The translations under genes and the position numbers were made by a program. A model generated the notes under the pieces. That model saw nothing but the letters and a program-made list of their open reading frames with translations, ran no database searches and was not told the origin of the DNA. A stretch of DNA of 48,561 bases, taken from IMG/VR virus record IMGVR_UViG_3300028653_000001, positions 1 through 48,561 of that record; one strand, 5' to 3'. Of the stretch, positions 34,732 through 48,561 are shown piece after piece (the first letter of the stretch is position 1; every line of letters starts with the position of its first letter). This DNA comes from a virus.

Positions 34732-36153
34732 TTATACCTTGAATAACTGGTTGCGCAGGTGCTTGCGAATCGGCTCATCGTAAATGTAGTCAATGTCGCC
34801 ATCTGCGTTGACGCCTACAGGCTTCAATATGCCCTGCAGGTAGTAGAGGACTCCACGGTTCGTCTTGAGGTCATCCCAACCGGCGCGCAACTTCTCGGCC
34901 CAGGTTGTGTTGTCCATGGCCTTGGCCGCAGCACCTGTTCCGAAGCACATATCATGCAGGCTCTGCGTGTGGGCCCAGGCAGGAATGTAGTCCTTAGCTG
35001 ACACCCTGGTGCCAGGGTTCTCCCGTGCCACCACTACGGCGTTGGTGGCATTCTGCCGCTGCCAGTTGCCAAATATGGGGTCATCGGGTCGTATGCCGCA
35101 GCAGCATCCGGTGTCATTGAGGTGCTTGAACAACGGGTCGCTGCTGGCAAATGTCATGCCGCAGGCGTGGGCAATGTCGCGGGCAGCGTAGAAGATATCC
35201 TCTGCCAGCTCTCTGCGCAGCCGGTTGCAGGCCCCGCCCTTGATGCGGTTCACCGCGTATATCTTGCGCAGCGGCATGGCCAGCAGTTCTTCGAGCATGT
35301 CCCAGTCCTTCTTCTTGTCGGGCTTGATGCTACCAGGTGTGAATATTGCTTCCATGCTCACGGCTTTGGCACCGGCTTCCGCGCAGCGCTCGATGAGTTC
35401 CTTGTACGCCTGCGGGTGTGCCGGGGTGCGGTCGCTCAAGTTGGGCATGATAGGCCTGAACCGCAGGCTGGTGCTGACCCCGCGCTTGCTCAACGCCGCC
35501 ATAGTGGCTATGCGCTTGCTGGGGCTGGGTGCTTTGCGGTCAATCTTCGTGAGTAGGTCGTCATCAATACTGATGATGCTGAACGCCACCCAAAAGATTT
35601 CCGGCAGGCTGAACGCATCGAGGTATTCAGGCGTTGAGAGCAAGTCTCCCTTAGTGCTGATGCGGCACGGCTGGTTATACTTCTTGAACAGTGCGGGCAG
35701 CTGCAGGGCCCAGCCTTGCTGGCGTTCGATGTTGTCGAACGAGTCATTCAAGGTTCCCAGCTGAATGGGGCAGGGCTGCTTCTGGTCGCGCTTGAGGGCG
35801 AAAAACATGGCCTTACCTTTGTCATCCTGGGCTTCACCACTGAGAATACGTTCCAGCCTGCCGATGTTGAACTGCTTCAACTTGGCGGCGGCAGCATTGT
35901 GCCCCTCCAAAAAGTTTGAGAAGCAGTAAATGCAGCTGTAGCTGCACATGCTATGACTATCCATGCTCACGGGCAGGGCACAGTCAAAACCATCGGCGGT
36001 GAAGCGGATTCCATCGTAGCTGGTGGGCAGCTCTTGCTTGGCCCCGGCGCAGTTGGTCATGGTGCTGCAACCACGGCATTCGGCGCAAGTTCCCACGCGC
36101 TTGTAACGCTGTTCGAGCTTAGACCGCTGCGGCTTCGGACTTGGGCATGCCAT
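34732..36153 (-). CDS. Radical SAM protein, SPL-like
   Basis: A 473-residue protein with GGAGGTAATCA before ATG 36153. CSYSCIYC (Cys70, 74, 77) is the 4Fe-4S site; the layout CSYSCIYCFSNF with LGTLNDSFDNIE and CRISTKGDLL downstream is that of the SPL-like group (spore photoproduct lyase relatives). An extra N-terminal cysteine cluster (CAECRGCSTMTNC at 23-35) could bind another metal site. It overlaps the ParB-like gene by 35 bases, and recombination genes flank it, so a DNA-linked reaction (repair or base modification) is likelier than sugar work. Confidence 0.75.
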   Translation of the reverse strand: MACPSPKPQRSKLEQRYKRVGTCAECRGCSTMTNCAGAKQELPTSYDGIRFTADGFDCALPVSMDSHSMCSYSCIYCFSNFLEGHNAAAAKLKQFNIGRLERILSGEAQDDKGKAMFFALKRDQKQPCPIQLGTLNDSFDNIERQQGWALQLPALFKKYNQPCRISTKGDLLSTPEYLDAFSLPEIFWVAFSIISIDDDLLTKIDRKAPSPSKRIATMAALSKRGVSTSLRFRPIMPNLSDRTPAHPQAYKELIERCAEAGAKAVSMEAIFTPGSIKPDKKKDWDMLEELLAMPLRKIYAVNRIKGGACNRLRRELAEDIFYAARDIAHACGMTFASSDPLFKHLNDTGCCCGIRPDDPIFGNWQRQNATNAVVVARENPGTRVSAKDYIPAWAHTQSLHDMCFGTGAAAKAMDNTTWAEKLRAGWDDLKTNRGVLYYLQGILKPVGVNADGDIDYIYDEPIRKHLRNQLFKV

Positions 36154-36754
36154 TGATTACCTCCATGAGCTTGGCCGTGTCGATTTCTCGGCGGCTGCGG
36201 TTCCTCCCGAGCAGCGCTGCAATGCGCACCCAGTCGTCCTCGGTTTCGAACTGGACGTACATCCACATCTTGATGGGCTTCTTGAATCCGGGGTTCTCCT
36301 TCTCGAACTTCTCCTTCTGCTGCTGCAGCTCGCTTTCCGTCTGCGTGCCAGAAAGGTCAAACAGGTGTTCCGGCGGCAGGCCCAACGTGGCAAAGTCGAA
36401 CAGCTGCTGCTCGCCAAGCTCATCCTTGAGCATTTTTGAGATGATGCGGCTGTTCAAGCCGGTGGTATTGTCGGCAACACGGTAAGCCTTCTTCTTTTCT
36501 TCCGTGAGGCCGATTATGCTGGCCACCAGCGGCACCGTTGTCCAGCCCAGCAGCTTGAGGGCCGCCAGGGTGCCATGCCCGTAGAGCAACACGCCTTCCT
36601 CATCCATGCCGATACTAACCTTGTTGTAACCGAACTGCTGTACGCTGCAGGCAATTTCTTTGATGTTGACGGCGTGGTCAAAGGCGTTCTGCGGGTACGG
36701 CTTCAAGCTGTTGATATCCACATCCCTCATTACAAACATCTGACGCTCGCTCAT
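36119..36754 (-). CDS. ParB/sulfiredoxin-fold protein
   Basis: A 211-residue protein with GGAGGACAGT before ATG 36754. DVDINSLKPYPQNAFDHA, then IKEIACSVQQFGYNKVSI and LLYGHGTLAALKLLGWTTVPLV match the ParB N-terminal/Srx fold, including the nucleotide-binding GHGTLAA (59-65). There is no ParB DNA-binding domain; instead a C-terminal region (MWMYVQFETEDDWVRIAALLG) is present as in phage and DNA-modification-linked ParB-like proteins. Its pairing with an SPL-like radical SAM gene, with overlapping frames, suggests they act together. Confidence 0.75.
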   Translation of the reverse strand: MSERQMFVMRDVDINSLKPYPQNAFDHAVNIKEIACSVQQFGYNKVSIGMDEEGVLLYGHGTLAALKLLGWTTVPLVASIIGLTEEKKKAYRVADNTTGLNSRIISKMLKDELGEQQLFDFATLGLPPEHLFDLSGTQTESELQQQKEKFEKENPGFKKPIKMWMYVQFETEDDWVRIAALLGRNRSRREIDTAKLMEVINGMPKSEAAAV

Positions 36755-36969
36755 ACTGTCCTCCCTGGGGTTATTTCCCTGCGTTGGTATCTACCGCCGC
36801 CGGATGATTTTTCATAAATGCGCGTTAAGCACATGTGCTGTTTGTAGGTGATGGTGCCTTCCCCACCTCGGTTCAAGATTGAGTTCATGAAGTTATGCTC
36901 AAAGCCATTGGGCTTATACCCTGCCGACTTGATGAACCTTATAAGTGTTATAGCCTCGATTTGCAGCAT
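36751..36969 (-). CDS. Small protein of 72 residues, unknown
   Basis: ATG 36969 follows TTTAGGAGTTTAAA. The protein contains IKSAGYKPNGFEHNFMNSIL and GEGTITYKQHMCLTRIYEKSSGGGRY, a pattern resembling short early phage proteins that lie near recombination genes. Overlaps the next start by four bases. Function not known. Confidence 0.6.
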   Translation of the reverse strand: MLQIEAITLIRFIKSAGYKPNGFEHNFMNSILNRGGEGTITYKQHMCLTRIYEKSSGGGRYQRREITPGRTV

Positions 36970-36970
36970 T

Positions 36971-38011
36971 TTAAACTCCTAAACTCTTGCAGAGTTCCGC
37001 CGCCTGGGTGGCATTAAGGTCATCAACCACCCACACCGTGTATTCATCAAACAGGCGCTTTGAGATTTCTCCCTGGGCCTTGCTGTCCAGCGTGGCCAAG
37101 TGCGCCTTGAGGCGGGTGTGGAACTCGGCGGCAGGCGCGGGGTTCTCCTTTTCCTTCGGCTGCGGAGCCGAAGGCTGGGTAACTGGCTTGGCCGGTGGCT
37201 GTTGTTCCTTGGCCTGTCCAACAGGTGCCGCAGTAGGAGGCTCTTTGACTATTTCGCCTTCCTCCCACTTGGTCTCATCGGGAACGGCAGTCATGTCGGG
37301 TTCTATCTTGGTTTTTACAGTTTCGTCGGTGGCTATCTGCTTTTGCACGTCGATGGAAAGCGGCAGCAGCTTGGTGAGCCGTTTTACGGCCGTCTTTTTG
37401 GCCATTTCCTCGTACCAGCGGGCCCAAGGACTGTAGTCGCTGGCTCCAGCCTTGCTGGCGGAGCGCACCTTGTCGATGTCCATGCGGGGCAGGTAAACGA
37501 ACACCTTCTCATCCGCGATGAGGTTCTTGGCGATTGCGTATACGCCCTTGACCTGCCCGCGGTCCTTGCCCTCTGCTGGCCGGTGCATAAGCACGGGGTT
37601 TAGTCCCAACTCATATTCGAATTCGTCATGCTCGTAAACGCATTCTGTCGATAGGATGGTTGCCTTGCCGCTGCGGTTGACGAGTTCGATGAGCCCCTTG
37701 TATCCGATGATGAACTGCACGTCGCGGCCATTCTTGTTATTGAATGGCACATAGTAGCAGTGCGCAATGTTGCCAGGCATTAGTCCCAGTTGCGCGGTCT
37801 GCACCATGGCACCGATGAGGCTGCTCTGCGTGCAGCTCAGCAATTCAGGGTTGCTGCGGATGACCATGGTGAACATGCTCACCAGCCTGTCAACCGTGAT
37901 TGATTGCGGCAGGGCTTTGGAGATGAGTTCCTTCTGCTGCTGCATGAAGTCGAACACCGTCAGCACCTTGGCGGCTGTTGCCACCGTTTTCGCCACTTTG
38001 GTATTATCCAT
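36971..38011 (-). CDS. recT: RecT-family single-strand annealing protein
   Basis: A 346-residue protein from ATG 38011 with AAAGGAGCTAAGA upstream. Features of RecT: SMFTMVIRSNPELLSCTQSSLIGAMVQTAQLGLMPG, YYVPFNNKNGRDVQFIIGYKGLIELVNRSG, and a YSPWARWYEEMAKKTAVKRLTKLLP motif. After about residue 240 comes a Pro/Ala/Lys-rich linker (TAAPVGQAKEQQPPAKPVTQ) and a separate C-terminal helical part, longer than usual RecT (about 270). It anneals single strands made by the YqaJ exonuclease encoded just upstream. Overlaps that gene by eight bases. Confidence 0.9.
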   Translation of the reverse strand: MDNTKVAKTVATAAKVLTVFDFMQQQKELISKALPQSITVDRLVSMFTMVIRSNPELLSCTQSSLIGAMVQTAQLGLMPGNIAHCYYVPFNNKNGRDVQFIIGYKGLIELVNRSGKATILSTECVYEHDEFEYELGLNPVLMHRPAEGKDRGQVKGVYAIAKNLIADEKVFVYLPRMDIDKVRSASKAGASDYSPWARWYEEMAKKTAVKRLTKLLPLSIDVQKQIATDETVKTKIEPDMTAVPDETKWEEGEIVKEPPTAAPVGQAKEQQPPAKPVTQPSAPQPKEKENPAPAAEFHTRLKAHLATLDSKAQGEISKRLFDEYTVWVVDDLNATQAAELCKSLGV

Positions 38012-38882
38012 TCTTAGCTCCTTTGCGCTTTGCGTAGCGCAGCACACGGAAGTCAGCGGCTGCGACCGTGTACTCCTTGCGGTGCTGCTTTTTCCATGTT
38101 ATCTTGTAGCGGTCAGTATTGCCGCATTCGTTTTCTTGCAGCATGGCCTTGAGGGTGTTCTTCTGCTGCTCAATGGTGCCTTTTAAGCTGGCCAAGTCCT
38201 CGGCCAAGCTCTCAAGGCTTTCCACTATCTTGTTGGCGTCATCATCCATGGTAACAGGCTCACCGAATATTACGTCTGGGAACAGGGACTGCAACGTGTC
38301 GCTGTCTTTGCAGGATATCTGCATGGGCATGACCTTGGGAACCACGAACGTGTTCCAGAACTCCACGGCTTTAGCCACCATTTGGTCAAACACTCTTTGG
38401 TCGAACTCAACCGTGCGCTCGATGTACTTCTGCCCGCCAATGAGGACGGCCAGGTGCCCCACCTTGCGGCCCGTGATGCCCAAGGCAAACATCACCTGGC
38501 AAACGTAATGCACGGGGGCATCCTCGGCACCTTCTTCGTCCTCCCAGGCCTTGCTCATGCGAGCGTTGGCGGTTTTGCACTCCACCAGCTCGTCGCTACC
38601 TTCTACCTCGTTGTCAAGCTCGCAGGAAAGAAACGGGTAAGCGGGGTGGTAAAACCTCCGCTTGTTGGGGATAAGCTTAACCCCGTTTTTGTCGGCATAC
38701 TTATCACCGACGACCCGTTCAAGCCGGTTGCCCCATTCGACTGCCTCATTGTCGCTCAGATCTTTGGGCGGAAGTTCCCCCGTTTTCTCAGCCCAGACGG
38801 CCAGAAGCGTTTTGTAGGGATTCAGCCCGAGGATAGCGGCAATGTCTGAAGAACCGATGAACCTCGTGCGATCTTCACTCAT
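38004..38882 (-). CDS. YqaJ-like viral exonuclease
   Basis: A 292-residue protein with GAGGAGAAAAT before ATG 38882. IGSSDIAAILGLNPYKT is the YqaJ start; the active site is Asp90 (CELDNEVEG) and the E-x-K pair of ELVECKTA (Glu101, Lys103) in the PD-(D/E)xK fold. HYVCQVMFALGITGRKVGHLAVLIGGQ is the typical downstream strand. A C-terminal coiled coil (ESLESLAEDLASLKGTIEQQKNTL) follows. Together with RecT it makes a two-component recombination system, as in lambda Exo/Beta. Confidence 0.9.
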   Translation of the reverse strand: MSEDRTRFIGSSDIAAILGLNPYKTLLAVWAEKTGELPPKDLSDNEAVEWGNRLERVVGDKYADKNGVKLIPNKRRFYHPAYPFLSCELDNEVEGSDELVECKTANARMSKAWEDEEGAEDAPVHYVCQVMFALGITGRKVGHLAVLIGGQKYIERTVEFDQRVFDQMVAKAVEFWNTFVVPKVMPMQISCKDSDTLQSLFPDVIFGEPVTMDDDANKIVESLESLAEDLASLKGTIEQQKNTLKAMLQENECGNTDRYKITWKKQHRKEYTVAAADFRVLRYAKRKGAKNG

Positions 38883-39072
38883 ATTTTCTCCTCGCTTTCT
38901 TGATTGCTAACAGCTCTTTGTCGATGAACTCGCTTATGTACGAGTGATACTGGTGGGACAGTGTGCAGAAGGTCTTGTTGGCGCGCAGCTTTTGGTGGCA
39001 GCGGGCCAGGAACTGGACTTCTTCTTTTGTGAGCGGTGGCTTCAACATGACGTTTTTCATCCTTTTGAACAT
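38875..39072 (-). CDS. Small early protein, unknown
   Basis: A 65-residue basic protein (MFKRMKNVMLKPPLTKEEV, QFLARCHQKLRANKTF, ISEFIDKELLAIKKARRKY). The start is uncertain: ATG 39072, 39060 or 39048 are possible and none has a strong ribosome site; 39072 is given because it is the longest that does not run into the neighbouring gene (39087). Overlaps the exonuclease start by eight bases. Function unknown. Confidence 0.5.
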   Translation of the reverse strand: MFKRMKNVMLKPPLTKEEVQFLARCHQKLRANKTFCTLSHQYHSYISEFIDKELLAIKKARRKYE

Positions 39073-39086
39073 TATAGCAGGTGAGT

Positions 39087-39314
39087 CTACCGTCCTCCAA
39101 CTTTTTGCAGCCAGCGCCGGTCGACTATGGTGGTTCCGTGCGCGAACTGCAATTTTTTCACAGGGGAGTTCTTGTTTATCAAGTCCACCTTCTGCAGCGT
39201 GCGGTGCATCGTCTTGAGCAAATCCCACATCGTTGGTTCCCGCTTGGTGCGCGCGAGGTATGTTGCACAAAGCGTCATGAGGTCGCCTTCAAAGGCCAGT
39301 CTGTCTGTCGCCAT
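39087..39314 (-). CDS. Small early protein of 75 residues, unknown
   Basis: ATG 39314 follows TTAGGAGCGCTTACCC. LTMTLCATY-like helical start (FEGDLMTLCATYLARTKRE), then MWDLLKTMHRTLQKVDLINKN and a basic end. No domain recognised. It lies in a tight run of early genes on this strand. Confidence 0.6.
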   Translation of the reverse strand: MATDRLAFEGDLMTLCATYLARTKREPTMWDLLKTMHRTLQKVDLINKNSPVKKLQFAHGTTIVDRRWLQKVGGR

Positions 39315-39326
39315 GGGTAAGCGCTC

Positions 39327-39659
39327 CTAAGAGTTGAGTGTGGCTAAAAAGTACTTCGCGAATCGTTTCCCTGCGCTGCTTTTTACCATCTCGACCTCGA
39401 TGTTGTGGCCCTGCTGCTTCAAGCGGCATACAACGCTGGCCAGACGCATGCAGCCGTAAAGGTTGAGTGCTTCGAGCGGGGTGATCGCCTTGCCTTCGTA
39501 AAGGTGCCGCATGATGCGCGCTTCCTGGGTGGAACTTTTCTTGGGGTCATACTTGAATTCCATTGCTTCTTCCACTGCCGCCTCCTTTGGCTGTTCGAAC
39601 CTTTCCCATGCCGGGTTAGTTTGCAGACTGCCAGTTGCACCACTTGGTAACCTTGCCAT
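39327..39659 (-). CDS. Winged helix-turn-helix protein
   Basis: A 110-residue protein with GGAAGGAGTAAAA before ATG 39659. The C-terminal half (STQEARIMRHLYEGKAITPLEALNLYGCMRLASVVCRLKQQGHNI) is the small helix-turn-helix domain of the HTH_39 type common in phages: 'S-Q-x-x-x-I-L-x-x-L-x-x-G-x-x-x-T-x-x-E-A-x-x-x-x-G'. It likely binds DNA, as an early regulator. The N-terminal half is low-complexity. Confidence 0.75.
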   Translation of the reverse strand: MARLPSGATGSLQTNPAWERFEQPKEAAVEEAMEFKYDPKKSSTQEARIMRHLYEGKAITPLEALNLYGCMRLASVVCRLKQQGHNIEVEMVKSSAGKRFAKYFLATLNS

Positions 39660-39736
39660 TTTTACTCCTTCCCCATCAGGTTATCAATCGCTATCATTAA
39701 GTATTCGCACTTAGTTGATTTATTTATCTTTTTTAT

Positions 39737-39841
39737 TTAAAAATCAGAAAATGATTGGCTACCACTTGGTGTAGCTGTAAAACGATAACATTTCTTGCGT
39801 AATCTGCATTTGGTATTTGAACACATGGTTATATCGGGCAT
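39737..39841 (-). CDS. Very small Cys-rich protein (34 residues)
   Basis: ATG 39841 overlaps the end of the upstream small gene, with GAGG about nine bases away. Product: MPDITMCSNTKCRLRKKC, then YRFTATPSGSQSFSDF. The pattern D-I-T-M-C-x4-C-x5-CYR is one that recurs in small phage proteins and probably binds zinc or another metal. Function unknown. Between its stop (39737) and 39660 only a short open stretch (MIAIDNLMGKE) without support is visible. Confidence 0.6.
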   Translation of the reverse strand: MPDITMCSNTKCRLRKKCYRFTATPSGSQSFSDF

Positions 39842-39963
39842 TGTTTATCCTCGCTTATCTCTGCAATCTTTTTCATTAACTCATAATAGAATTTACCATC
39901 TCGGTCATTTTCAGTAGTAGCTAACCACTCCATTAGTTTCTGCCACCGAGCATTACCGTTCAT
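39829..39963 (-). CDS. Very small protein of 44 residues
   Basis: ATG 39963 has a strong ribosome site (AAGGAGGCAAA). Product: MNGNARWQKLMEWLATTEN, then DRDGKFYYELMKKIAEISEDK. It is helical and acidic. Overlaps the next small gene by 13 bases. Function unknown. Confidence 0.6.
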   Translation of the reverse strand: MNGNARWQKLMEWLATTENDRDGKFYYELMKKIAEISEDKQCPI

Positions 39964-41048
39964 TTTGCCTCCTTTTCCGGACAAATATTGATAAAATGAG
40001 CTTCTTTATTCTCTAATGTCGCTTTTGCCAAAATTAGTCCATTACTTAACCCACGCATATAAGCATCAGTTTTATTAGACGGGTCACTTAACTGGATCCT
40101 CATAACATCATCCAGGTCTTTCATTCCCTTTTGCCCCGGACACCTCACCATATCAGGATTGCTGGCGGGTAAGATGGCGAGGATGGCATCGGCGGCTTTA
40201 CCAAAACCAGCTATTTCGCTTGTTTCGTCGTACCTATCGTGTCTAATCTCCAATTCATCACAGAGCACTCTCATAATCATTTCCCTACTCCACGCCTTCT
40301 TCGATTCGATGGCATGGAGTTTTTCCTGCTTCTGCATTAAATCGCCGATAGCATTTCCCGACTTCTGTATCAGTATACCCTCAAGTTCAATGACCTTCTC
40401 CTTCAGCTCGGAGTTTTCGGATTCGAGTTTCATTTCCCTTGCGAAAGTGCTACTGGGTGTAGTATATAATACTTCCTCGAAATGCTTAATCTTCTGCAAC
40501 GCCTCATCCCTTTCCTTTGTGAGCGTATCAATTTGCTTCTGCAACCATTGTACATTCCAGGATTTATAGTCCATCTTCACCCCCCCCTCTTTTATGCGTG
40601 ATTGTTCCAGAGCTTGCCGGGCAATTAGTAATGCCTCTTTCAACCCCTCCGTCATATTATTTCCCATAGTGCCAGAACCACCAGATTTATGATGCACAGT
40701 TATCTCGTGAGCTTTATCTATTCCCCAGGGCAATTTATCTATCAGGTTCTCCAACGCCTCCCTCAATACTTCCAGTTCCATCTTCTGCTTGATGTAGATT
40801 GGCATGAAAAGGTCATGGCAGGAGTTGAAATCATAAGAACCACAATCGCAAAAGCCTCCGCCTAAACATTCTTCTAAATGTGCTCTCTTCTCCGGCACCT
40901 CGTCCTTTGCATTGATGACAACGTCTATAAGTTCAATAGCGATTTGTAACGCTTTTCCATTCATCTCTTGATATGGCTGTATAGGGTCGCATTCATCCTG
41001 CATCATAATTAACCTTCCTTTTGCTTCCTTCAATTCGGGTATGTTCAT
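39960..41048 (-). CDS. Coiled-coil early protein, possible gene fusion
   Basis: A 362-residue protein from ATG 41048 (GAAAGGATTAAA upstream). The N-terminal 160 residues (NIPELKEAKGRLIMMQDE, CLGGGFCDCGSYDFNSCHD) and the C-terminal 200 residues (a coiled coil SWNVQWLQKQIDTLTKERDEALQKIKHFEE, then VDRC-less helical end) look like two separate proteins. They join at a run of eight C (40580-40587; G on the coding strand) just before MDYKSW, which has its own GAGGGGG ribosome site. The coiled-coil part may be expressed alone. Base content here (41-43 kb) is richer in A+T than the rest. Confidence 0.6.
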   Translation of the reverse strand: MNIPELKEAKGRLIMMQDECDPIQPYQEMNGKALQIAIELIDVVINAKDEVPEKRAHLEECLGGGFCDCGSYDFNSCHDLFMPIYIKQKMELEVLREALENLIDKLPWGIDKAHEITVHHKSGGSGTMGNNMTEGLKEALLIARQALEQSRIKEGGVKMDYKSWNVQWLQKQIDTLTKERDEALQKIKHFEEVLYTTPSSTFAREMKLESENSELKEKVIELEGILIQKSGNAIGDLMQKQEKLHAIESKKAWSREMIMRVLCDELEIRHDRYDETSEIAGFGKAADAILAILPASNPDMVRCPGQKGMKDLDDVMRIQLSDPSNKTDAYMRGLSNGLILAKATLENKEAHFINICPEKEAK

Positions 41049-41049
41049 T

Positions 41050-41295
41050 TTAATCCTTTCGTAATTTATCCAACGATACTGTAGTAAACCGTCGGTTCTT
41101 AAATGGATATGCACTACCTGGGTTAATAGCTATCTTTGCCCCTTCCTTCGTCTTACACGCACCAAATGTTGTAACTACCATCTTGACAATCGTTCCGTTG
41201 ACCCACAGCCCTAATGGATTATGGTACGGCTTGCAGACCCAATGAACATCATCACCTACCTTGAATTTTTCTACCCCAAAATCTTCTTTCTTCAT
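41050..41295 (-). CDS. Small protein, SH3-like pattern
   Basis: An 81-residue protein; ATG 41295 (AAGGGAGGAAG upstream) is preferred over 41319. EKFKVGDDVHWVCKPYHNP and a repeated strand pattern (GTIVKMVVTTFG, YPFKNRRFTTVSLDKLRK) fit a small beta-barrel of the SH3/KOW kind. It may bind nucleic acid. Function unknown. Confidence 0.55.
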   Translation of the reverse strand: MKKEDFGVEKFKVGDDVHWVCKPYHNPLGLWVNGTIVKMVVTTFGACKTKEGAKIAINPGSAYPFKNRRFTTVSLDKLRKD

Positions 41296-41315
41296 CTTCC
41301 CTCCCTTGCTCGGTT

Positions 41316-41837
41316 TCATTTAGACCTCACGGGTAAAGGGTCAAATTGCCGAGACTGGCTGGAGCGGACGGGCCGGACACAACCGCCGTTGGCCTTACCG
41401 AAGCCGCTCACGTAGCCATCGTCGGAGACCACGCACCACGCGGCACCGGACTCCCAGACGCACGTCGTGCCGGTCCAATACCAGTCATCGTGCTTCCCGC
41501 CGAAGACGTTTGTATCCCAGGCGGGCTTGAAGCGCGTGTAGTCCACGATCGAACGCAGTTCCTCGACCGTAGGCAGACGCCAATCTTTCTTGCCGGCATA
41601 CGACAACGCTTGGCACCGTTTCCACGCCTCATCCCACGGCATCGTTTTTTCGAAGCCAGGTATTTGCGACGGATCCTTTACCCAGACGACGCTGAGCAGC
41701 TTATCACTGACCGTTCCATCCCCGTTGTCCGTGTAGCGGTCGCTGATCTTGCGCGGAGCGGCCGGCGCTGGTGCCTTTTCCTTCATAACATCCCTTATTT
41801 CTTCCAGTAACTCAATGATGCGGTCTTCCTGTTTCAT
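41316..41837 (-). CDS. DUF1566 (Lcl C-terminal) domain protein
   Basis: A 173-residue protein. After an N-terminal helix (EDRIIELLEEIRDVMKEK), residues about 35-165 match DUF1566: RYTDNGDGTVSDKLLSVVWVKD, MPWDEAWKRCQALSYAGKKDWRLPTVEELRSIVDY, WYWTGTTCVWESGAAW and GGCVRPVR. The domain has a C-type-lectin-like fold and is usually found on surface or fibre proteins, so its place in an early operon is odd. Base composition is GC-richer than neighbours. No signal peptide and no reverse transcriptase nearby. Confidence 0.75.
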   Translation of the reverse strand: MKQEDRIIELLEEIRDVMKEKAPAPAAPRKISDRYTDNGDGTVSDKLLSVVWVKDPSQIPGFEKTMPWDEAWKRCQALSYAGKKDWRLPTVEELRSIVDYTRFKPAWDTNVFGGKHDDWYWTGTTCVWESGAAWCVVSDDGYVSGFGKANGGCVRPVRSSQSRQFDPLPVRSK

Positions 41838-41962
41838 GCTTCCTTCCTCTCTGATTTCTTAACCATTTTCCCGCAACCGTAGCACCTGAATTTACTGCTA
41901 ACTATTCTGCCCGTACATTCGCACCAACGACTCAATGATTTCTTACAGTTGCTCGGTTTCAT
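41834..41962 (-). CDS. Small zinc-ribbon-like protein (42 residues)
   Basis: ATG 41962 follows GAGGAATTACC, and TGA overlaps the DUF1566 start. Product: MKPSNCKKSLSRWCECTGR, then IVSSKFRCYGCGKMVKKSE. The cysteines (C6, C14-x-C16, C27-x2-C30) suit a zinc ribbon. It may bind nucleic acid. Found by reading the gap. Confidence 0.58.
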   Translation of the reverse strand: MKPSNCKKSLSRWCECTGRIVSSKFRCYGCGKMVKKSERKEA

Positions 41963-42138
41963 GGTAATTCCTCGATTTTTAATTTACGAACATCGGTGTA
42001 TGCTTTTTTAGCCTGACGTTTGTATTTAAATATCTCCATGCGGGTAACTCCACCATAATATTCCTGGTCGTAATAACTCCAAAGAATATCATTGCAAAAA
42101 CCAGCATATCCTATCCATACTTTCTTCCTCTTGCTCAT
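41959..42138 (-). CDS. Small protein of 59 residues, unknown
   Basis: ATG 42138 follows AAAGGAGTAGAG. The product is rich in aromatics and Lys (KVWIGYAGFCNDILWSYYDQ, YGGVTRMEIFKYKRQAKKAYTDVRKLKIEEL). The GYAGFCND-type start and later KRQAKKAY helix suggest a compact fold. No family recognised. Overlaps the next gene by four bases. Confidence 0.58.
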   Translation of the reverse strand: MSKRKKVWIGYAGFCNDILWSYYDQEYYGGVTRMEIFKYKRQAKKAYTDVRKLKIEELP

Positions 42139-42140
42139 CT

Positions 42141-42272
42141 CTACTCCTTTGTCAGGTTGGATTGGTTCAATGCGTCCAGTTCTTTTAATAACTGTTTTAT
42201 TTCATCATTTGCAACACAGAGTGGGCAAATCTTACTCTCATGCGCAATATCACAATCAGAACAATAATTCAT
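42141..42272 (-). CDS. Small CxxC protein (43 residues)
   Basis: ATG 42272 follows AGGAGGGGAGAA; longer in-frame starts read back into the upstream gene. Product: MNYCSDCDIAHESKICPLC, then VANDEIKQLLKELDALNQ. Two CxxC pairs spaced 12 residues make a zinc ribbon, followed by a coil. Function unknown. Confidence 0.6.
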   Translation of the reverse strand: MNYCSDCDIAHESKICPLCVANDEIKQLLKELDALNQSNLTKE

Positions 42273-42282
42273 TTCTCCCCTC

Positions 42283-42756
42283 CTACTTTTTAAGGTGTGC
42301 GATGATTGATTTAGCTTGCGCTTCGAACAACTTCTCATTGTGAACCTTCTCGGTAAATACCGTCTGTAATATTTTCTCTATTGCCCAATATTCTGGCACC
42401 CTACACCACCCCTGCTCCTTGAGCTTGGATTCGGAGATGGGGAGTTTTAACATATCTTCCCTTTGAGGGAGATGTGTTACAGTTACATCCCAATTAGAAC
42501 CACTCCAATCATCCAAAACATTCTTAACATCTTGTGCATCAAAAATTCTTTTATCTTTCCACTCAATCCTCACATCAATCTTTCCCATTTTTACCCTCCT
42601 TTGAACGTAGTCGCCACTCCTTGCCTCAGTCAACACCTTGTCCACCTCCTCCTTAGGCCACCCCTCCTTGGTAGCCTGCGCTCTGAAATGCCCCAGCAGG
42701 CTGAAGGCGTTGCCATCAAGACCTACCAATTTAAGTTTCAGCAATCCTTTCTTCAT
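42283..42756 (-). CDS. Composite early protein with internal start
   Basis: A 157-residue frame. Residues 1-50 (KLKLVGLDGNAFSLLGHFRAQATKEGWPKEEVDKVLTEARSGDY) belong to a short family found in many phages. Residues 57-157 (MGKIDVRIEWKDKRIFDAQDV...) look like a second protein: its ATG at 42588 has a perfect site, AAAGGAGGGTAAAA, which is translated as part of the frame. So the first gene seems to have lost its normal end and become joined in frame to the second, which can still start by itself (101 residues, 42283-42588). Confidence 0.62.
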   Translation of the reverse strand: MKKGLLKLKLVGLDGNAFSLLGHFRAQATKEGWPKEEVDKVLTEARSGDYVQRRVKMGKIDVRIEWKDKRIFDAQDVKNVLDDWSGSNWDVTVTHLPQREDMLKLPISESKLKEQGWCRVPEYWAIEKILQTVFTEKVHNEKLFEAQAKSIIAHLKK

Positions 42757-43184
42757 CTCTCCATCTCCCTTGCGTAGAATTTCCGCACATTAGATTTCCA
42801 GTTGCGATTAAGCCCTGCGGGGTCATTGGCTACGTTCAAAGGGGCGTACCTATCGCCCAAGAACGAAATGAAATCACCTTTGCCATTCCAGTCCCTTAGC
42901 GCGTGGTTGATGGTATTGATACACGCCTGACGGGGAGTGGTCGTCTTATAATGCGCCATAATACCGTAAGGATGGGAACGGCTATTCTCTGCCTTATCTA
43001 TGGCATTAGCTAACCGTTCCACGTTGATTATCTCCTCCGCCTTTGCCGTCCTTGCCGTCATGAATATCACCCCCACGATCACCGCACAGATGACAGCTAC
43101 GGCAATCGCCAGGCCACGGAATATGCTCAGGCGGTTCTCAGCTTCGAGTTTCTCTTGGTCAAATAATGGGTCATAATGATTCAT
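42753..43184 (-). CDS. Membrane-anchored muramidase/transglycosylase-like protein (endolysin candidate)
   Basis: A 143-residue protein. A single membrane helix (residues 24-42, GLAIAVAVICAVIVGVIFM) follows a charged start, and the rest would lie in the periplasm. The outer domain starts VERLANAIDKAENSRSHPYGIM, with Glu66 where lysozyme-fold enzymes keep their catalytic acid, and continues TPRQACINTINHALRDWNGKGDFISFLGDRYAP. A signal-anchor muramidase would fit, and no other muramidase is visible in the genome. It is on the early strand, away from the holin at 22907. The catalytic residue is inferred. Confidence 0.65.
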   Translation of the reverse strand: MNHYDPLFDQEKLEAENRLSIFRGLAIAVAVICAVIVGVIFMTARTAKAEEIINVERLANAIDKAENSRSHPYGIMAHYKTTTPRQACINTINHALRDWNGKGDFISFLGDRYAPLNVANDPAGLNRNWKSNVRKFYAREMER

Positions 43185-43354
43185 CGCTTCCCCCTTTTCT
43201 GCTTACGTTTCGACCTTCCGTAGTAATGTTGTTTATTCGATGGATGATTGGGCGCCCAGTTGCATATTCCGGGTGTTGTATCAAGCCTACTTTCTCCACA
43301 CCTAAGGCAATACCTAAACGGTTCCGAGTTTGGAAAGGATTGCTTTGGCTTTGT
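43181..43354 (-). pseudogene. Open zinc-ribbon frame without a start codon
   Basis: Between TAA 43355-43357 and TGA 43181-43183 one frame is open and looks coding: PFRYCLRCGESRLDTTPGIC, then NWAPNHPSNKQHYYGRSK and a basic end. No ATG, GTG or TTG occurs in it. It could be reached by a frameshift from the 43314-43625 gene, start at a rare codon, or be the rest of a gene that lost its 5' end. Low confidence. Confidence 0.4.
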
Positions 43355-43625
43355 TTACAGCGAAATAAGCATCCCACCTATGAGAGTTTTTAAGGTTAAA
43401 CTCTGATACATAATCAAGAACTATCTCCATCGAACCTTTCAAATCCTGCAATGCTTCTACCAACTCCTCATGGTTATTCACAGCCATGCAGATGTAACGG
43501 GCGTTGTCCAAAGCGTTTCCCTTTAAGTCGGAACAATCTGCAATAACAGAGTCAAACCCATCACCGTATTTTATACAAAATCCCTCTGTTTTCCACTTCC
43601 CCGGAGTCCTCTTTGATTCGGTCAT
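43314..43625 (-). CDS. Early protein, 'NARYICMAVNN' family
   Basis: A 103-residue protein with TTTTAGGAGGAGTATC before ATG 43625. TPGKWKTEGFCIKYGDGFDSVIADC, NARYICMAVNNHEELVEALQDL is a common small phage pattern (related to the 'N-A-x-L-I-A-A-A-P-E-L-L' group). Function unknown. It is the first gene downstream of the structured leader at 43648-43771. Confidence 0.65.
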   Translation of the reverse strand: MTESKRTPGKWKTEGFCIKYGDGFDSVIADCSDLKGNALDNARYICMAVNNHEELVEALQDLKGSMEIVLDYVSEFNLKNSHRWDAYFAVNKAKAILSKLGTV

Positions 43626-43647
43626 GATACTCCTCCTAAAATGAAAA

Positions 43648-43771
43648 GGCCCAAGGGGGGCAGGCTACCAGGCAAACAAAAGGCACGGATAGGTGGTTGT
43701 GATCGCACCGTCGCGCTTTCTGCGCCCCCTTGGGCCAAGTTTATTCTTCGTCTGACTGGGAGCCTGGTAGC
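43648..43771 (-). promoter_or_regulatory. Structured leader with two interleaved inverted repeats (attenuator-like)
   Basis: Two perfect inverted repeats are interleaved. GGCCCAAGGGGG (43648-43659) pairs with CCCCCTTGGGCC (43725-43736), 12 bp. GCTACCAGGC (43664-43673) pairs with GCCTGGTAGC (43762-43771), 10 bp. Read as leftward RNA the order is B, A, B', A', with B' directly before A', and A' is followed by TTTTCATTTT. The A-A' stem is therefore terminator-like and the B-B' stem is either an alternative or a pseudoknot partner. A GCGC stem (43713-43725) lies between. The leader ends just before the ribosome site of the 43314-43625 gene. Confidence 0.6.
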
Positions 43772-43826
43772 TCTCTGCATGTCTGGTCTGCCTGTCTGGT
43801 TGTGTTGCTGAATTTCACTTGTTATA

Positions 43827-43854
43827 ATTTTAGCACTTTTACCGCTATTTGCAA
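43827..43854 (-). promoter_or_regulatory. Sigma-70-like promoter, leftward (second early promoter)
   Basis: On the minus strand TTGCAA (43849-43854), a 16-base spacer ending GTGC, then TAAAAT (43827-43832). It overlaps the end of the HTH gene and would start RNA near 43820, about 195 bases before ATG 43625, with the structured leader between. The spacer end and -35 resemble the promoter at 46667-46694. Confidence 0.55.
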
Positions 43855-44042
43855 GGATTTTCTGCACTTTTATTCTGGTCAGCGTGCAGCTGCTGCAGCG
43901 CTTGCATGTGTTCAGGGCCAGGCTTGTAAACACCCAAGGCCCACATGTGAACCGCATTCCAGCTGACGCCGCACACCTTTGCTATTTGGTATTTGCTGAT
44001 GCCATCTTCCAGCAATTCCTTGACGACTTGAATCGGTTGCAT
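43845..44042 (-). CDS. Helix-turn-helix (Cro-like) regulator
   Basis: A 65-residue protein. ISKYQIAKVCGVSWNAVHMWALGVYKPG is a helix-turn-helix with the Q-I-A-x-x-x-G-V-S-x-x-A-V-x-x-W pattern of Cro-like repressors. A short helical end follows. Its stop lies within the second early promoter, so it may control that promoter or the first one. RBS AAAGGATAAC. Confidence 0.75.
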   Translation of the reverse strand: MQPIQVVKELLEDGISKYQIAKVCGVSWNAVHMWALGVYKPGPEHMQALQQLHADQNKSAENPCK

Positions 44043-44043
44043 G

Positions 44044-44448
44044 TTATCCTTTCGTATTGGTTAAGCTTGACGCCAGCACCCCTGGCCCCAGCTGCAGGAA
44101 CTTGCCATCGGCGGGCATTGCGTTCAGCAGCTTGAACTCAACCCACCAGTGGCTGCCCTGGGCAACACTCTGACCACCACGGAACGGGGCCCACTTCTCA
44201 CCCTTGCTTACCACCAGGTGCGGCAGGGCCAGGCGCGTGAGGCCATCGCTGACTTTCATCATGAACTTGTTGGCGTCCCAGCTTAGGCGGTAGAAAAATC
44301 CCCGGCGTGCCACAAAGTTGCCAACCCTGTTCTTAGTTAGGGCATCAAAGCTGCCGCATCCGCCTTGCACTTTTCTGAGTTCCTCGTGTAACATGGGTGC
44401 CGTCCATGTTTTTGTAAATCCAGCCCTCCTGCGGAATCTTGATTTCAT
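44044..44448 (-). CDS. Early protein of 134 residues, unknown
   Basis: ATG 44448 follows AGGGAGACTGAT. The protein is basic at its start (KSRFRRRAGFTKTWTAP) and has WDANKFMMKVSDGLTRLALPHL and SHWWVEFKLLNAMPADG. No family recognised. It ends one base before the HTH gene start. Confidence 0.6.
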   Translation of the reverse strand: MKSRFRRRAGFTKTWTAPMLHEELRKVQGGCGSFDALTKNRVGNFVARRGFFYRLSWDANKFMMKVSDGLTRLALPHLVVSKGEKWAPFRGGQSVAQGSHWWVEFKLLNAMPADGKFLQLGPGVLASSLTNTKG

Positions 44449-44465
44449 ATCAGTCTCCCTTTTTA

Positions 44466-45017
44466 TCAATGGCCCCACAGCACTACGCGCACGGTTTCCC
44501 CGAACCGTTCTTTGCGGAACTGTTCCAACATGGCAATGGCCACGTTGAACCGGCGGTATCCTTCTGGCCCGTACTGCCCATTGGAGATGAGTCCAGCAGC
44601 GTCCTTACGAATTGCCGCCAGCAGTTCTTCAATGTCGGCCACCAGCAGTAGGTCTCCGCAAGAGTCTTCGAAGTGCTTAGTATTGCCGTCTATACCGTAG
44701 AAGAAAGGAAGTTTTTTTCCCAGGATACGTTCCATTTTGAATAGGGCATCCGTGGCCTTTTTTTGCTCTGATAATTGGAGCGCATCTACTTCCGGGGTAT
44801 AATTACCGGCCTGGGTGTATATGCGATTGTGCTCGTTCTCCCATTCCGTTATATCTGCGCTTAGGTTCGCATTTTTCCGGTTGGCCATGCGCAGCCTCCC
44901 TATGAGGTCGCCGATTTCGTCGTTGCACACCTTGCCCATTTCCAGGGAAGCTTCGTCAGACTGATACCCGGTGCGTTTGCGGCCCGTTATGAAGATGAGT
45001 TTTGTTTCGTAACCCAT
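44466..45017 (-). CDS. Early protein of 183 residues, unknown
   Basis: AAGGAGAACATC precedes ATG 45017. The protein has GYETKLIFITGRKRTG at the start and EGYRRFNVAIAMLEQFRKER, then VRVVLWGH at the end. This 'MGY...RRF-x-x-A-x-x-L-L-x-x...V-R-V-V-L-x-GH' layout recurs in phage early proteins of unknown role. Not assigned. Confidence 0.6.
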   Translation of the reverse strand: MGYETKLIFITGRKRTGYQSDEASLEMGKVCNDEIGDLIGRLRMANRKNANLSADITEWENEHNRIYTQAGNYTPEVDALQLSEQKKATDALFKMERILGKKLPFFYGIDGNTKHFEDSCGDLLLVADIEELLAAIRKDAAGLISNGQYGPEGYRRFNVAIAMLEQFRKERFGETVRVVLWGH

Positions 45018-45034
45018 GATGTTCTCCTTGTGAG

Positions 45035-45061
45035 GGGCGGGGCCGGTGGTGCGCCCCGCCC
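45035..45061 (-). other. GC-rich hairpin between early genes
   Basis: GGGCGGGGC (45035-45043) and GCCCCGCCC (45053-45061) form a 9-bp stem with a 9-base loop. No T run follows on the minus strand, so it is not a typical terminator. It lies between the DUF932 gene and the next gene, where it could block exonucleases or set unequal expression. Confidence 0.55.
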
Positions 45062-45072
45062 GCAGTGCTTTG

Positions 45073-45870
45073 TTATTTGGTGGTGGCCAGCTTGGCCATT
45101 TCTTCTGTGAGCGACCAGAGGGCCCGATTCAGCGCGATATCGTGCTTGACGCTGTTGATACTGCGCGTTTTGATGTGCTTGCCCGTGGCGTTGAGGCCAC
45201 GCTGGCCGCCCTTCATGATGTTCTCCTGTACGTTGTTGAACGTGTTCCATAGGTTGGGCTGGTTGTCAGCATACCTGCGGGCACCGAGCAATTCACCTTC
45301 AGAGAGGTGGATGGGGCTGTCGCGCAGGACTTCGGCGGCCCTGGCGTAGGCGTGCTGCTGTTCCTTGCTCAGCTCGATGCTCTTCCAGGTGGCAATGCCT
45401 GTCATGACGGCCGGAGCCTCTTCGACTATCTTGAAGCTGGCGTCAATGACCTGTTGGCAAAGGCTCTTGTCGCCGGTGTGGCGGGTGGCTATCTCGCCAA
45501 AGCTGCTGCTCTGCACGATGAGGCCATTGCTGCACACTACCCGGAATATGCCCATCATCAGCTTGTAAGCGGTGGAACCGTCATGGCTGTTCACCAGGAC
45601 GACTTCGGGAATGTCCTCACCGAGGCGTCCGGTTGTCAACATGTCCTCCATGCGGCGGAGGCGCACAACGTGGCGGCAGTATTCGCCTTTTCCAGCCACG
45701 CGAGTGCGGGTCTGCGCGGCCATGACGGGGTAGAAGCCGCTATCCTGCAGGGCCTCAACGACCTGGATGGTGGGCACGAACCTGTACTGTTCGGTCATCT
45801 TGACGGCTGGGTGCGCTGCGAAGATGCTCGGTGCCCTTTCCTGCAGTTCTGTGGCGGTGAGGATTTCCAT
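45073..45870 (-). CDS. DUF932-like phage/plasmid protein
   Basis: A 265-residue protein from ATG 45870 (AATAAGGAGGCTTCAA upstream). The pattern RFVPTIQVVEALQDSGFYPVMAAQTRTR, YCRHVVRLRRM, EVVLVNSHDGSTAYKLMMGIFRVVCSNGLIV matches DUF932, a family of unknown function widespread on phages and plasmids. It is an early gene and is probably abundant, given its ribosome site. Confidence 0.78.
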   Translation of the reverse strand: MEILTATELQERAPSIFAAHPAVKMTEQYRFVPTIQVVEALQDSGFYPVMAAQTRTRVAGKGEYCRHVVRLRRMEDMLTTGRLGEDIPEVVLVNSHDGSTAYKLMMGIFRVVCSNGLIVQSSSFGEIATRHTGDKSLCQQVIDASFKIVEEAPAVMTGIATWKSIELSKEQQHAYARAAEVLRDSPIHLSEGELLGARRYADNQPNLWNTFNNVQENIMKGGQRGLNATGKHIKTRSINSVKHDIALNRALWSLTEEMAKLATTK

Positions 45871-45957
45871 TTGAAGCCTCCTTATTTGGTTTTGTTTGTG
45901 AGTTGGCCAGGGTTGCGGGATGCGTGCGCTTGTGCGCATTGGCGCGTGGGTTAACCG

Positions 45958-46269
45958 TTATCGTGCGTGGCCTTCGGCGTATCTCGGGAGGAAGCATTCC
46001 CCCAGCTGCCCGGTAATGCGGTCAATGTGCCGCACTATGCCGAACACGTCATGCCCGAAGTTGCCATCGGTAGCCGCCAGCAATTCCTTTAGCTTTAATG
46101 GGCAGCCGTTTGCGTGGCAGGCGGTGATGTCCATTTCCGTGGAAAGGAAGTCCAGCTTTAGTCCCCAGCCGTCTGCGAGCTTGCAGGCACGGCTGGTTAT
46201 CTTTGAAATAAGCTCTATTTCACACTTTCCGGTTTTAATGCTGACTTCTTTACGGGTTGCTTTCTTCAT
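45958..46269 (-). CDS. Early protein of 103 residues (DUF6874-like pattern)
   Basis: AAGGAGGATGTA precedes ATG 46269. DITACHANGCPLKLKELLAATDGNFGHDVFGIVRHIDRITGQL is a pattern I have seen in a common phage family ('H-x-NGCPL-x-L...F-x-HDVFGIRRHIDR'). Function unknown. Gap 45871-45957 holds only the leader of the DUF932 gene. Confidence 0.6.
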   Translation of the reverse strand: MKKATRKEVSIKTGKCEIELISKITSRACKLADGWGLKLDFLSTEMDITACHANGCPLKLKELLAATDGNFGHDVFGIVRHIDRITGQLGECFLPRYAEGHAR

Positions 46270-46307
46270 TACATCCTCCTTGGTTGTGGCCGTAGGGCCG
46301 TGGTTGT

Positions 46308-46544
46308 TTAGTACCGTTCTGCTGCTGTGAGTAGCTTTGCTTTTAAGTCCTGCACCCTGGCGCGCAGCTGCTTGATTTGCAAGTTGCGTCGGCGCAGCTT
46401 ATCTTCTGCGCTGAAGGCGTGCTCTTGCATGCCCTCTATGGCGTGAACCACTGACTGGGCGACGAAGTAACGCCTGTAGTCGTTTTGGAACCACCAGCCT
46501 GCCTGCTGGTCAAAGCCCGTGAGGAACACCTTTTTGCTGCCCAT
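46308..46544 (-). CDS. Coiled-coil early protein, first gene of the leftward unit
   Basis: A 78-residue protein; ATG 46544 has AAGAAAGGAAAAC upstream, and longer in-frame sequence lacks support. It ends in a coiled coil (SAEDKLRRRNLQIKQLRARVQDLKAKL). It is the first gene after promoter 46667-46694. Function unknown. Sequence 46545-46640 shows a basic open frame without a start codon; not called. Confidence 0.6.
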   Translation of the reverse strand: MGSKKVFLTGFDQQAGWWFQNDYRRYFVAQSVVHAIEGMQEHAFSAEDKLRRRNLQIKQLRARVQDLKAKLLTAAERY

Positions 46545-46659
46545 GTTTTCCTTTCTTGCACTTGTCCCGCTTTGCAGCCGCCGCTTTGTGCGTTTTTGAG
46601 GCCCGCTTGTTGCTTGGCCCGCTGCGCCCCGACTTCTCAAAGAGCTTTGTTGCCTTCCA

Positions 46660-46675
46660 TGCTATAACTATAGCA
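46660..46675. promoter_or_regulatory. Inverted repeat overlapping the early -10 (operator candidate)
   Basis: TGCTATA-AC-TATAGCA is a perfect 7-bp inverted repeat covering the -10 of the leftward promoter. A dimeric helix-turn-helix protein could bind it and block transcription. Confidence 0.45.
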
Positions 46676-46694
46676 CATCTGCATTAAAATGCAA
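46667..46694 (-). promoter_or_regulatory. Sigma-70-like promoter for the leftward unit
   Basis: On the minus strand TTGCAT (46689-46694), 16 bases ending GTGC, TATAGT (46667-46672). RNA would start near 46660, about 115 bases before ATG 46544. The -35 partly overlaps GCATTAAAATGC (46681-46692), a second small inverted repeat. Confidence 0.55.
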
Positions 46695-46997
46695 GGACTA
46701 TTTTAGCAACATTGTCATCTGCCATTGCTGGCGTAAAAGTCACCACTCTAACCCCTCAAACCAACCCCAAGCACAAACCCTTCCCTAAATAGTCATGTTG
46801 CTCACATGTGCGTCATGAGTGCGTCAATCGCATTGTCATTCAAAGAAAAGATTAAGCACAGTCTAAGCACATAAAAGATTAAGAAGCTTTGGGAGATTCT
46901 CTTTTGACGAACAAAACGACTGTAATCAAAAAGCTACCAGGAAAGGTTTTTCAAGATTTTCAAACGCTATCACCCTTTTGTCTGCCATGCTTAAGCC
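46695..46997. other. Divergent control region with short direct repeats
   Basis: About 300 bases without a gene between the two transcription units. GTGCGTCA occurs at 46808-46815 and 46819-46826 (11 bases apart, one helical turn). TAAGCACA occurs at 46853-46860 and 46864-46871, and AAAAGATTAAG at 46846-46856 and 46873-46883. It could hold the late promoter, a replication origin with iterons, or the packaging site next to terminase. A TTGACG box at 46904-46909 lacks a well-spaced -10. Confidence 0.5.
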
Positions 46998-47633
46998 ATG
47001 GAGCTCACAGAGTTTGAACGGTGGCAGCAGCAGGAAGAAGTGGTCAAGCAGTCCATCTTGGAAAAAGTGGACGGGCTAAATGAACGCCATGTTCGCTTTT
47101 GCCTTGAGTACATTGTAGACCTGGTTGGCAGACAGGCAGCAATACGTGCCGGTTACAGTGAAGACGCTGCCAGCCACACTGCATGGAAGATACTCAATCT
47201 CCCCGAGGCCCAGGCATACATCCAAAAACTGCTTGAGGAAAAGGCCAACCGCACCAAGGCCACCGCCGACAAAGTCATCAGCGAGTTATATCACCTTGTT
47301 AGCTTTGACCCCGTGTCAATTTTGTCAGAGGATGGGTGCCTTATCAAGGACATGCGTTCCATGCCTGCAGCGACGCGCAAATGTATTGCTGCCGTTGATA
47401 TACAGGAAACTTTTGAAGGCACCGGAGACAACCGCGTCTGGACAGGATATATCAAGAAAATTAAGTTCTGGGACAAAACCAAAGCCCTCGAAATGCTGGG
47501 CAAGCACCACAAGCTGATAACCGACCGGCTTGAAGCCAGCGCCCCTGATGGCGGCCCGTTGCTGGCCCCGGCGTTCATCATTGAGCCGGTGCGTGCATTA
47601 CAAGCAGTAGAACAACCAAATCCCGCAAGCTGA
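46998..47633 (+). CDS. terS: Terminase small subunit
   Basis: A 211-residue protein. DGLNERHVRFCLEYIVDLVGRQAAIRAGYSEDAASHTAWKIL is the helix-turn-helix N-terminus of the Terminase_2 family (N-x-x-Q/H-x-x-F-x-x-EY, A-A-I-R-AGYS). The C-terminal part (FWDKTKALEMLGKHHKL) is the conserved end that contacts the large subunit. It binds the packaging site and starts the late unit. No strong ribosome site precedes ATG 46998. The large subunit starts at 47637, three bases past the TGA. Confidence 0.88.
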   Translation: MELTEFERWQQQEEVVKQSILEKVDGLNERHVRFCLEYIVDLVGRQAAIRAGYSEDAASHTAWKILNLPEAQAYIQKLLEEKANRTKATADKVISELYHLVSFDPVSILSEDGCLIKDMRSMPAATRKCIAAVDIQETFEGTGDNRVWTGYIKKIKFWDKTKALEMLGKHHKLITDRLEASAPDGGPLLAPAFIIEPVRALQAVEQPNPAS

Positions 47634-47636
47634 TGA

Positions 47637-48561
47637 ATGAGTACAACCCTGCGCGAATGCCGAATACAATTTCCAGAAAAAGTGGTGCCCGTGTTGTTCG
47701 GCAAGGGGCGCTTGAAGGTTCTTCATGGAGGTCGCGGTGGTGCTAAGAGCTGGGCATTTGCAAGATATCTTGTTATCCGCGCAGCCAGAGAGAAGCTACG
47801 CATCCTCTGCGCCCGTGAAATCCAGAACAGCATCAAAGACAGCGTCTACCGACTCCTCGTTGACCAAATCTATGCGCTGGGGTTGCAAGCCCACTTCATC
47901 ATTCGTGCAGACAGTATCATCGGCCGCCACACCGGCGCCGAGTTCATCTTCAAGGGCCTGCGGCAAAACATCAGCGAGGTTAAGAGCCTTGAAGGCATTG
48001 ACATTTGCTGGGTTGAAGAAGCTGAGAAGGTTTCTCTCAATAGCTGGGACATTCTCACCCCAACCATCCGCAAAGAGAACAGCGAAATCATCGTCAGCTT
48101 CAACCCCGAAGATGAGAACAGTGCTACAGACCAAATGTTCCTCGGCAAGAACGGCCCTCCCCCTGACACCCTCATCGCCGAACTCAACTACCCGGACAAT
48201 CCCTGGTTCCCCGAAGTCCTGCGCAAGGAGATGGAATACTGTCGGCGTGTTGACCCCGATAAGTACAATCACGTCTGGCTGGGCAAGACCAAGAAGTACG
48301 GCGAGGCCTGCATTTTTGCCAGCAAGGTGTTCGTTGAGGCTTTTGATGACCCAACTGAAGACCAGCAAATGTACTACGGCATGGACTTCGGCTTCAGCGC
48401 CGCCCCCACAAGTCTGCACGCCTACTTCATCAAAGACAATAAGCTTTACGTTTGGCAAGAGGCTTACGGCCACGGCGTCGAGATCACTGAGCTGCCTGCG
48501 TTCGTGCGTAGTGTGCCTGGTACAGACAAGTGGAAGATACGCGCTGACAGTGAGCGCCCCG
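47637..48561 (+). CDS. terL: Terminase large subunit, N-terminal part
   Basis: First 308 residues of the packaging ATPase-nuclease; the gene runs off the window end and continues at base 1. ATG 47637 is three bases after the small-subunit stop and gives the protein MSTTLRECRIQFPEK. Walker A is HGGRGGAKS (30-38), Walker B IDICWVEEAE (121-130, with Glu127/128), the coupling motif SFNP (154-157), and the first nuclease acid Asp250 lies in YYGMDFGF. The motif set fits PBSX/Terminase_3-type TerL. An alternative ATG at 47633 is in another frame and gives no TerL. Confidence 0.93.
   Translation, partial: MSTTLRECRIQFPEKVVPVLFGKGRLKVLHGGRGGAKSWAFARYLVIRAAREKLRILCAREIQNSIKDSVYRLLVDQIYALGLQAHFIIRADSIIGRHTGAEFIFKGLRQNISEVKSLEGIDICWVEEAEKVSLNSWDILTPTIRKENSEIIVSFNPEDENSATDQMFLGKNGPPPDTLIAELNYPDNPWFPEVLRKEMEYCRRVDPDKYNHVWLGKTKKYGEACIFASKVFVEAFDDPTEDQQMYYGMDFGFSAAPTSLHAYFIKDNKLYVWQEAYGHGVEITELPAFVRSVPGTDKWKIRADSERP
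48435..48561 (+). repeat. Terminal direct repeat, right copy
   Basis: Identical to 1-127 over all 127 bases. The length equals a common assembler k-mer, and a physical end repeat would not be expected in mid-terL, so this is taken as an assembly overlap of a circular or circularly permuted genome. Confidence 0.95.

Follow-up and report, generated by a model that had tools for sequence, protein, structure and literature searches.

In the phage P4 immunity RNA and the P1 c4 RNA, segments of the leader pair with one another, end transcription early in the operon and release a small RNA. The IsrK RNA of the Gifsy-1 prophage is a short RNA that extends from a prophage promoter to a Rho-independent terminator, with partial read-through into a downstream phage operon; which outcome prevails depends on alternative long-range pairings, and the known control is on translation of the read-through mRNA in trans (PMC4825925). 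In the HMP-PP (thiS) riboswitch, a conserved class associated with bacterial thiamin genes, the aptamer is embedded in the terminator (PMC6478431). The put RNA of phage HK022 is about 70 nt long, forms two stem-loops near an early promoter and suppresses downstream termination (PMC9378689). Among openly licensed papers, none was found that deals with the architecture described below.

The window analyzed here is an entire virus record of 48,561 bases. It carries a perfect 127-bp terminal direct repeat (1-127 / 48435-48561) and a large terminase frame that runs past the record end; taken together, these features make it probable that a complete phage was assembled here as a circle. Rightward genes encode the small terminase, the large terminase (named via a match to a relative's terminase-like gene) and the portal, and leftward genes encode a DUF6874 protein, a DUF932 protein, RecE, RecT, a ParB-like protein and an SbcC-like protein. 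On the minus strand, a 219-base gap separates a 65-aa helix-turn-helix gene upstream from a 103-aa ORF downstream, and the leader in this gap lies at the border of the first and second leftward early blocks. The preliminary description had reported two perfect repeats (12 and 10 bp) in this gap, interleaved as B-A-B'-A' in the leftward RNA, with a U-rich tail after A' and then the ribosome site of an early gene. Both repeats are exactly where it placed them, at 100% identity, and the rest can be read directly in the sequence: the leftward RNA runs B, A, B', A', UUUUCAUUUU, AGGAGGAG and the ATG of the 103-aa ORF at 43625. The features are listed below in leftward order.

46663-46694, minus strand: promoter-like site P1, at the head of the early leftward operon, a near-twin of P2.
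43845-44042, minus strand: 65-aa helix-turn-helix regulator-like gene (phrog_6831, E 2.3e-5; below Pfam cut-offs).
43827-43854, minus strand: promoter-like site P2 (TTGCAA, 16 nt, TAAAAT, the second hexamer being preceded by TG), which overlaps the helix-turn-helix gene at its end; as the twin of P1 the site spans 43823-43854.
43762-43771, minus strand: arm B (GCUACCAGGC), 10 nt, from the inverted-repeat search, 100% with B'.
43725-43736, minus strand: arm A (GGCCCAAGGGGG), 5' half of the terminator-like stem, 12 nt, from the inverted-repeat search, 100% with A'.
43720-43723, minus strand: GCAG just after A, with possible pairing to CUGC at 43663-43660.
43676-43723, minus strand: hairpin H, predicted within the loop that A and A' enclose, -15.0 kcal/mol alone.
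43664-43673, minus strand: arm B' (GCCUGGUAGC), from the inverted-repeat search.
43648-43659, minus strand: arm A' (CCCCCUUGGGCC), 3' half of the terminator-like stem, from the inverted-repeat search.
43638-43647, minus strand: U-rich run UUUUCAUUUU, immediately 3' of A', read in the sequence, tail score nT 4.67.
43630-43637, minus strand: Shine-Dalgarno AGGAGGAG of the 103-aa ORF, read in the sequence.
43314-43625, minus strand: 103-aa ORF, the first gene past the leader; it weakly matches phrog_1273, a family of unknown function.
41316-41837, minus strand: Lcl_C-domain protein in the early block (Pfam E 1.4e-27).

The loop between A and A' is 65 nt, B and A are spaced by 25 nt, and B' is followed by A' after 4 nt (CUGC). 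Pairing of GCAG with CUGC would add 4 bp to stem A across a one-base bulge, bringing it to 16 bp, and this extension competes with predicted hairpin H. In the predicted fold, the Shine-Dalgarno is partly paired with the U run.

Our preferred reading, to which we give about an even chance of being right, is that this stretch forms the 5' leader RNA, some 195 nt long, of the delayed leftward early block and that it acts as a leaky or regulated terminator. Polymerase starting from P2, and also from P1 through the helix-turn-helix gene, would transcribe B and A; B-B' would pair upon emergence of B', and A-A' (12 bp, up to 16) would form upon emergence of A', directly ahead of the U run. Part of the transcripts would then stop near 43640, giving a stable leader RNA about 180 nt long, and the remaining ones would continue into the 103-aa gene; a factor may set the read-through. 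B-B' and A-A' may coexist as a pseudoknot, in which the 26-nt B'-CUGC-A' strand would pair with two separate stretches upstream in an almost unbroken helix, and B-B' could brace or time the terminator. The anatomy of the leader, its improbability, its non-coding character and the twin promoter-like sites are what the sequence analysis establishes; the transcription start, the termination and the pseudoknot in the cell belong to the proposal. The leader would probably serve as a switch in the sense that only part of the transcripts reach the early gene.

An attenuator- or terminator-type leader is a known kind of element; this architecture is not matched in Rfam. Segment order and gene context set it apart from the P4 immunity and P1 c4 RNAs. 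It would resemble IsrK, a prophage leader RNA, in ending at a terminator with partial read-through, and differs from it in the interleaved helices around the terminator, none being described for IsrK in the portion of its account used, a comparison by description only (PMC4825925). It shares with the HMP-PP riboswitch a structured element within an otherwise ordinary terminator stem (PMC6478431); unlike that riboswitch, our leader has no Rfam match, precedes a phage gene of unknown function and has a helix that pairs the terminator loop with a segment outside it. Like HK022 put, it would place RNA structure shortly after an early phage promoter and alter termination (PMC9378689). In topology, the basis of this comparison, it lies outside the put type, since its two long helices interleave and its end is terminator-like.

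The stems had been described as mutually exclusive, in the layout of attenuators and riboswitches. Part of that layout holds, namely an untranslated structured leader with a GC stem and a U run, but a shared arm of terminator and antiterminator is absent: A, A', B and B' have no base in common. On the folding models, the stems exclude each other only under nested folding, and a pseudoknot permits both.

Singly, the repeats are not far from expectation. The genome contains seven repeats of at least 10 bp within 150 nt, against 6.0 simulated, which is chance level, and one 12-bp repeat, against 0.32, which is modestly unusual (60 simulations in each case). The crossing pair has a summed stacking energy of -54.6, and among 2000 dinucleotide-shuffled versions of the 197-nt leader none came up to it (best -38.6). 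With A and A' kept in place, 28 of 5000 shuffles produced a crossing helix of 10 bp or longer, and four produced one that matched the stability of B. A genome scan of 1936 overlapping 197-nt segments on both strands ranked three segments containing this element at the top, the next one reaching -38.2. As a wider yardstick we used 129 phage and genome sequences (1.85 Mb), a set that takes in this phage record and some near-duplicates; seven crossing pairs in it have both helices of at least 10 bp, and by energy the present pair ranks third among all crossing pairs, preceded by a hairpin of 25 bp at the end of a contig and by a family of palindromes. Crossing repeats of such size are uncommon, not unheard of, and the promoter-to-Shine-Dalgarno position adds weight.

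With respect to termination, the element combines a GC-rich stem with an adjoining U-rich run: 12 perfect bp are followed by UUUUCAUUUU, with nT 4.67 and, for A-A', a passing terminator score (d 16.7). The 65 nt between A and A' place its loop far outside the range of ordinary intrinsic terminators (about 3-10 nt). The one stem there with a short loop is a weak local hairpin of A', which passes or fails the score according to where its ends are placed (d 8.6, -3.1 or -9.3); on this modeling it could terminate without arm A. A simple terminator scanner detected just a weak 5-bp alternative stem at the leader, and scanner totals in the leader region were at chance for both terminators (4 vs 6.7) and promoters (4 vs 3.5).

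These features also suit a plain constitutive terminator, formed by A-A' or by the short local hairpin of A', which would insulate the upstream early genes from the delayed block; B-B' would be coincidental and there would be no switch. Stem and U run suffice for this, and the chance-level count of 10-bp repeats, like the seven crossing pairs in 1.85 Mb, makes a coincidental B-B' easier to accept. Against it stand the rarity of a helix as stable as B once A is fixed (the 4 of 5000 shuffles) and the strong Shine-Dalgarno straight after the U run, which argues that read-through must matter. We regard a plain terminator as a possible explanation, at a level well short of even.

The best nested fold of the 138-nt core contains A-A' and inner pairs at -52.7 kcal/mol (z -3.07; none of 200 shuffles as good), and the full 197-nt leader folds slightly better than its shuffles (z -1.36; 18 of 200 as good). 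Forcing B-B' in nested folds costs 4 kcal/mol. The crossing helices, with loops of 25, 51 and 4 nt, might make an H-type pseudoknot, and a rough energy for B-B' together with A-A', using a simple penalty after Dirks and Pierce, is -57.7 or -56.5. By this rough estimate the pseudoknot would be favored over the nested fold by about 4-5 kcal/mol, a difference within the error of such sums. In folds of successive prefixes, the mean pair probability of B-B' is 0.70-0.80 at four of five prefixes ending at 43664-43650 and 0.26 at 43660, and that of A-A' is 0.99-1.00 once A' is complete, which suggests that B-B' would fold first and A-A' after A' emerges. An HDV-like ribozyme topology was considered and dropped, the B'-A' gap being only 4 nt and the B-A gap 25 nt.

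A pseudoknotted 5' structure might also act without termination, as a translational or stability element that is bound by a protein or protects the mRNA. Its energy is reasonable, it stops 10 nt ahead of the Shine-Dalgarno, and the Shine-Dalgarno is predicted to pair with the U run; however, neither helix covers the Shine-Dalgarno or the start codon, and a U run placed exactly after a GC stem is required for a terminator but not for a translational switch. We consider such a role unlikely. At least equally doubtful is a more far-reaching version of the regulated terminator, a new kind of phage RNA in which a two-step pseudoknot with a continuous 26-nt zipper 3' strand, paired to two separate segments upstream, gates the passage from immediate-early to delayed-early genes and the freed, stable leader RNA could act in trans on further transcripts of the phage. 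When trans targets were sought within the record, words of 10-12 nt in common with the leader were seen at 16 other places and none was singled out. One is a ten-base copy of B (AGCTACCAGG) at 46932-46941 on the plus strand, upstream of the small terminase, which could pair with B' in trans; being one of 16 such words, it is at chance level.

Relatives of the leader were sought by megablast of 40000-48561 and distant blastn of 43560-43900 in the phage collection, and none was found; comparison of the leader DNA with 26 related virus records gave two chance matches of 15-17 nt only. Exact stem patterns had no match in one search and three loci in another, which were inspected and proved unrelated. 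We also built a covariance model of stem A and hairpin H, leaving B out and entering the single sequence twice (no real variation); in 87 sources, this record included, drawn from the record and 136 loci, it retrieved only the record itself and an ordinary terminator at E 3, which turned up twice. The whole record has no Rfam 15 match at the curated threshold, which bears out the earlier statement that no known riboswitch class is recognized; a relaxed threshold gave three matches (E 4.9 to 7.8), all far below cut-off.

Protein searches gave a similar picture. The 103-aa protein had nothing usable in IMG/VR viral contigs, phages, plasmids and genome contigs (best, a weak phage match at E 0.05) and no match in 20 related virus records, a search run without a positive control. 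Nothing usable was obtained for the 65-aa helix-turn-helix protein in IMG/VR viral contigs or phages, or for the DUF932 gene in IMG/VR viral contigs. Terminase scans produced 80 viral and 32 genome loci and a portal scan three viral loci; the best of these relatives have virion genes in common with this phage, those from a RecE scan have RecE/RecT, and the 103-aa protein, the 65-aa helix-turn-helix protein and the products of nearby genes (p143, p144 and p183) had no match at the loci of terminase, portal and RecE relatives. By these comparisons the leader is an orphan, where missing relatives mean absence in the searched collections at the search sensitivities used. The leftward early block (36000-46700) is itself largely orphan, and terminase/portal relatives of up to 68% identity carry other early genes; differing early genes in virion-gene relatives may be read as a sign of module exchange. 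Lcl_C-type domains are variable targets of diversity-generating retroelements. A reverse transcriptase that would point to such an element near the Lcl_C gene was sought in the record, and none was found.

An orphan locus without conservation, picked from a 48-kb scan, is also what would be expected if two unrelated perfect repeats had fallen by chance into an untranslated gap, and seven comparable pairs do occur in 1.85 Mb. Set against this, none of the 2000 shuffles matches the pair, it is the strongest crossing pair of the genome, and it sits exactly between a promoter-like site and the Shine-Dalgarno and ATG with the U run in register, so that we judge coincidence improbable.

P1 and P2 have the common layout TTGCA-N13-GTGCTAnArTTATA, which occurs at these two places only in the record; the expectation of 0.04 is optimistic because the pattern was composed from both sites after inspection. 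From its spacing, P2 would start transcription near 43820, and its RNA would open with a GUG frame within 3 bases of that start. The -10 region of P1 is palindromic (TGCTATA-GT-TATAGCA), a possible candidate operator for the 65-aa helix-turn-helix protein, and a P1 RNA, if begun at 46660, would start with a leaderless AUG frame of 7 codons (46637-46660, minus strand).

A coding reading of the leader was rejected: an overlapping 111-aa frame scores -0.17 bits per codon (-0.38 over its last 52 codons), compared with +0.07 to +0.43 for the other genes scored, and two plus-strand frames over the leader have negative codon scores where neighboring genes are positive. A 25-codon frame does run from GTG 43818 to TAA 43741, with its stop a few bases ahead of A, and a ribosome at that stop would cover part of A, keep B open and suppress the terminator, but such a peptide-leader attenuator is very improbable, since the frame has no Shine-Dalgarno and no run of one amino acid's codons, starts only two or three bases away from where the RNA would begin, and has an uninformative codon score (0.02).

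If the pseudoknot gates termination, this leader would be a terminator controlled by a helix crossing out of its own loop, not by a competing arm, and it would offer a compact natural system in which co-transcriptional folding sets read-through. If it is a plain long-loop terminator, it would still mark the border of two early gene blocks in a little-known phage group.
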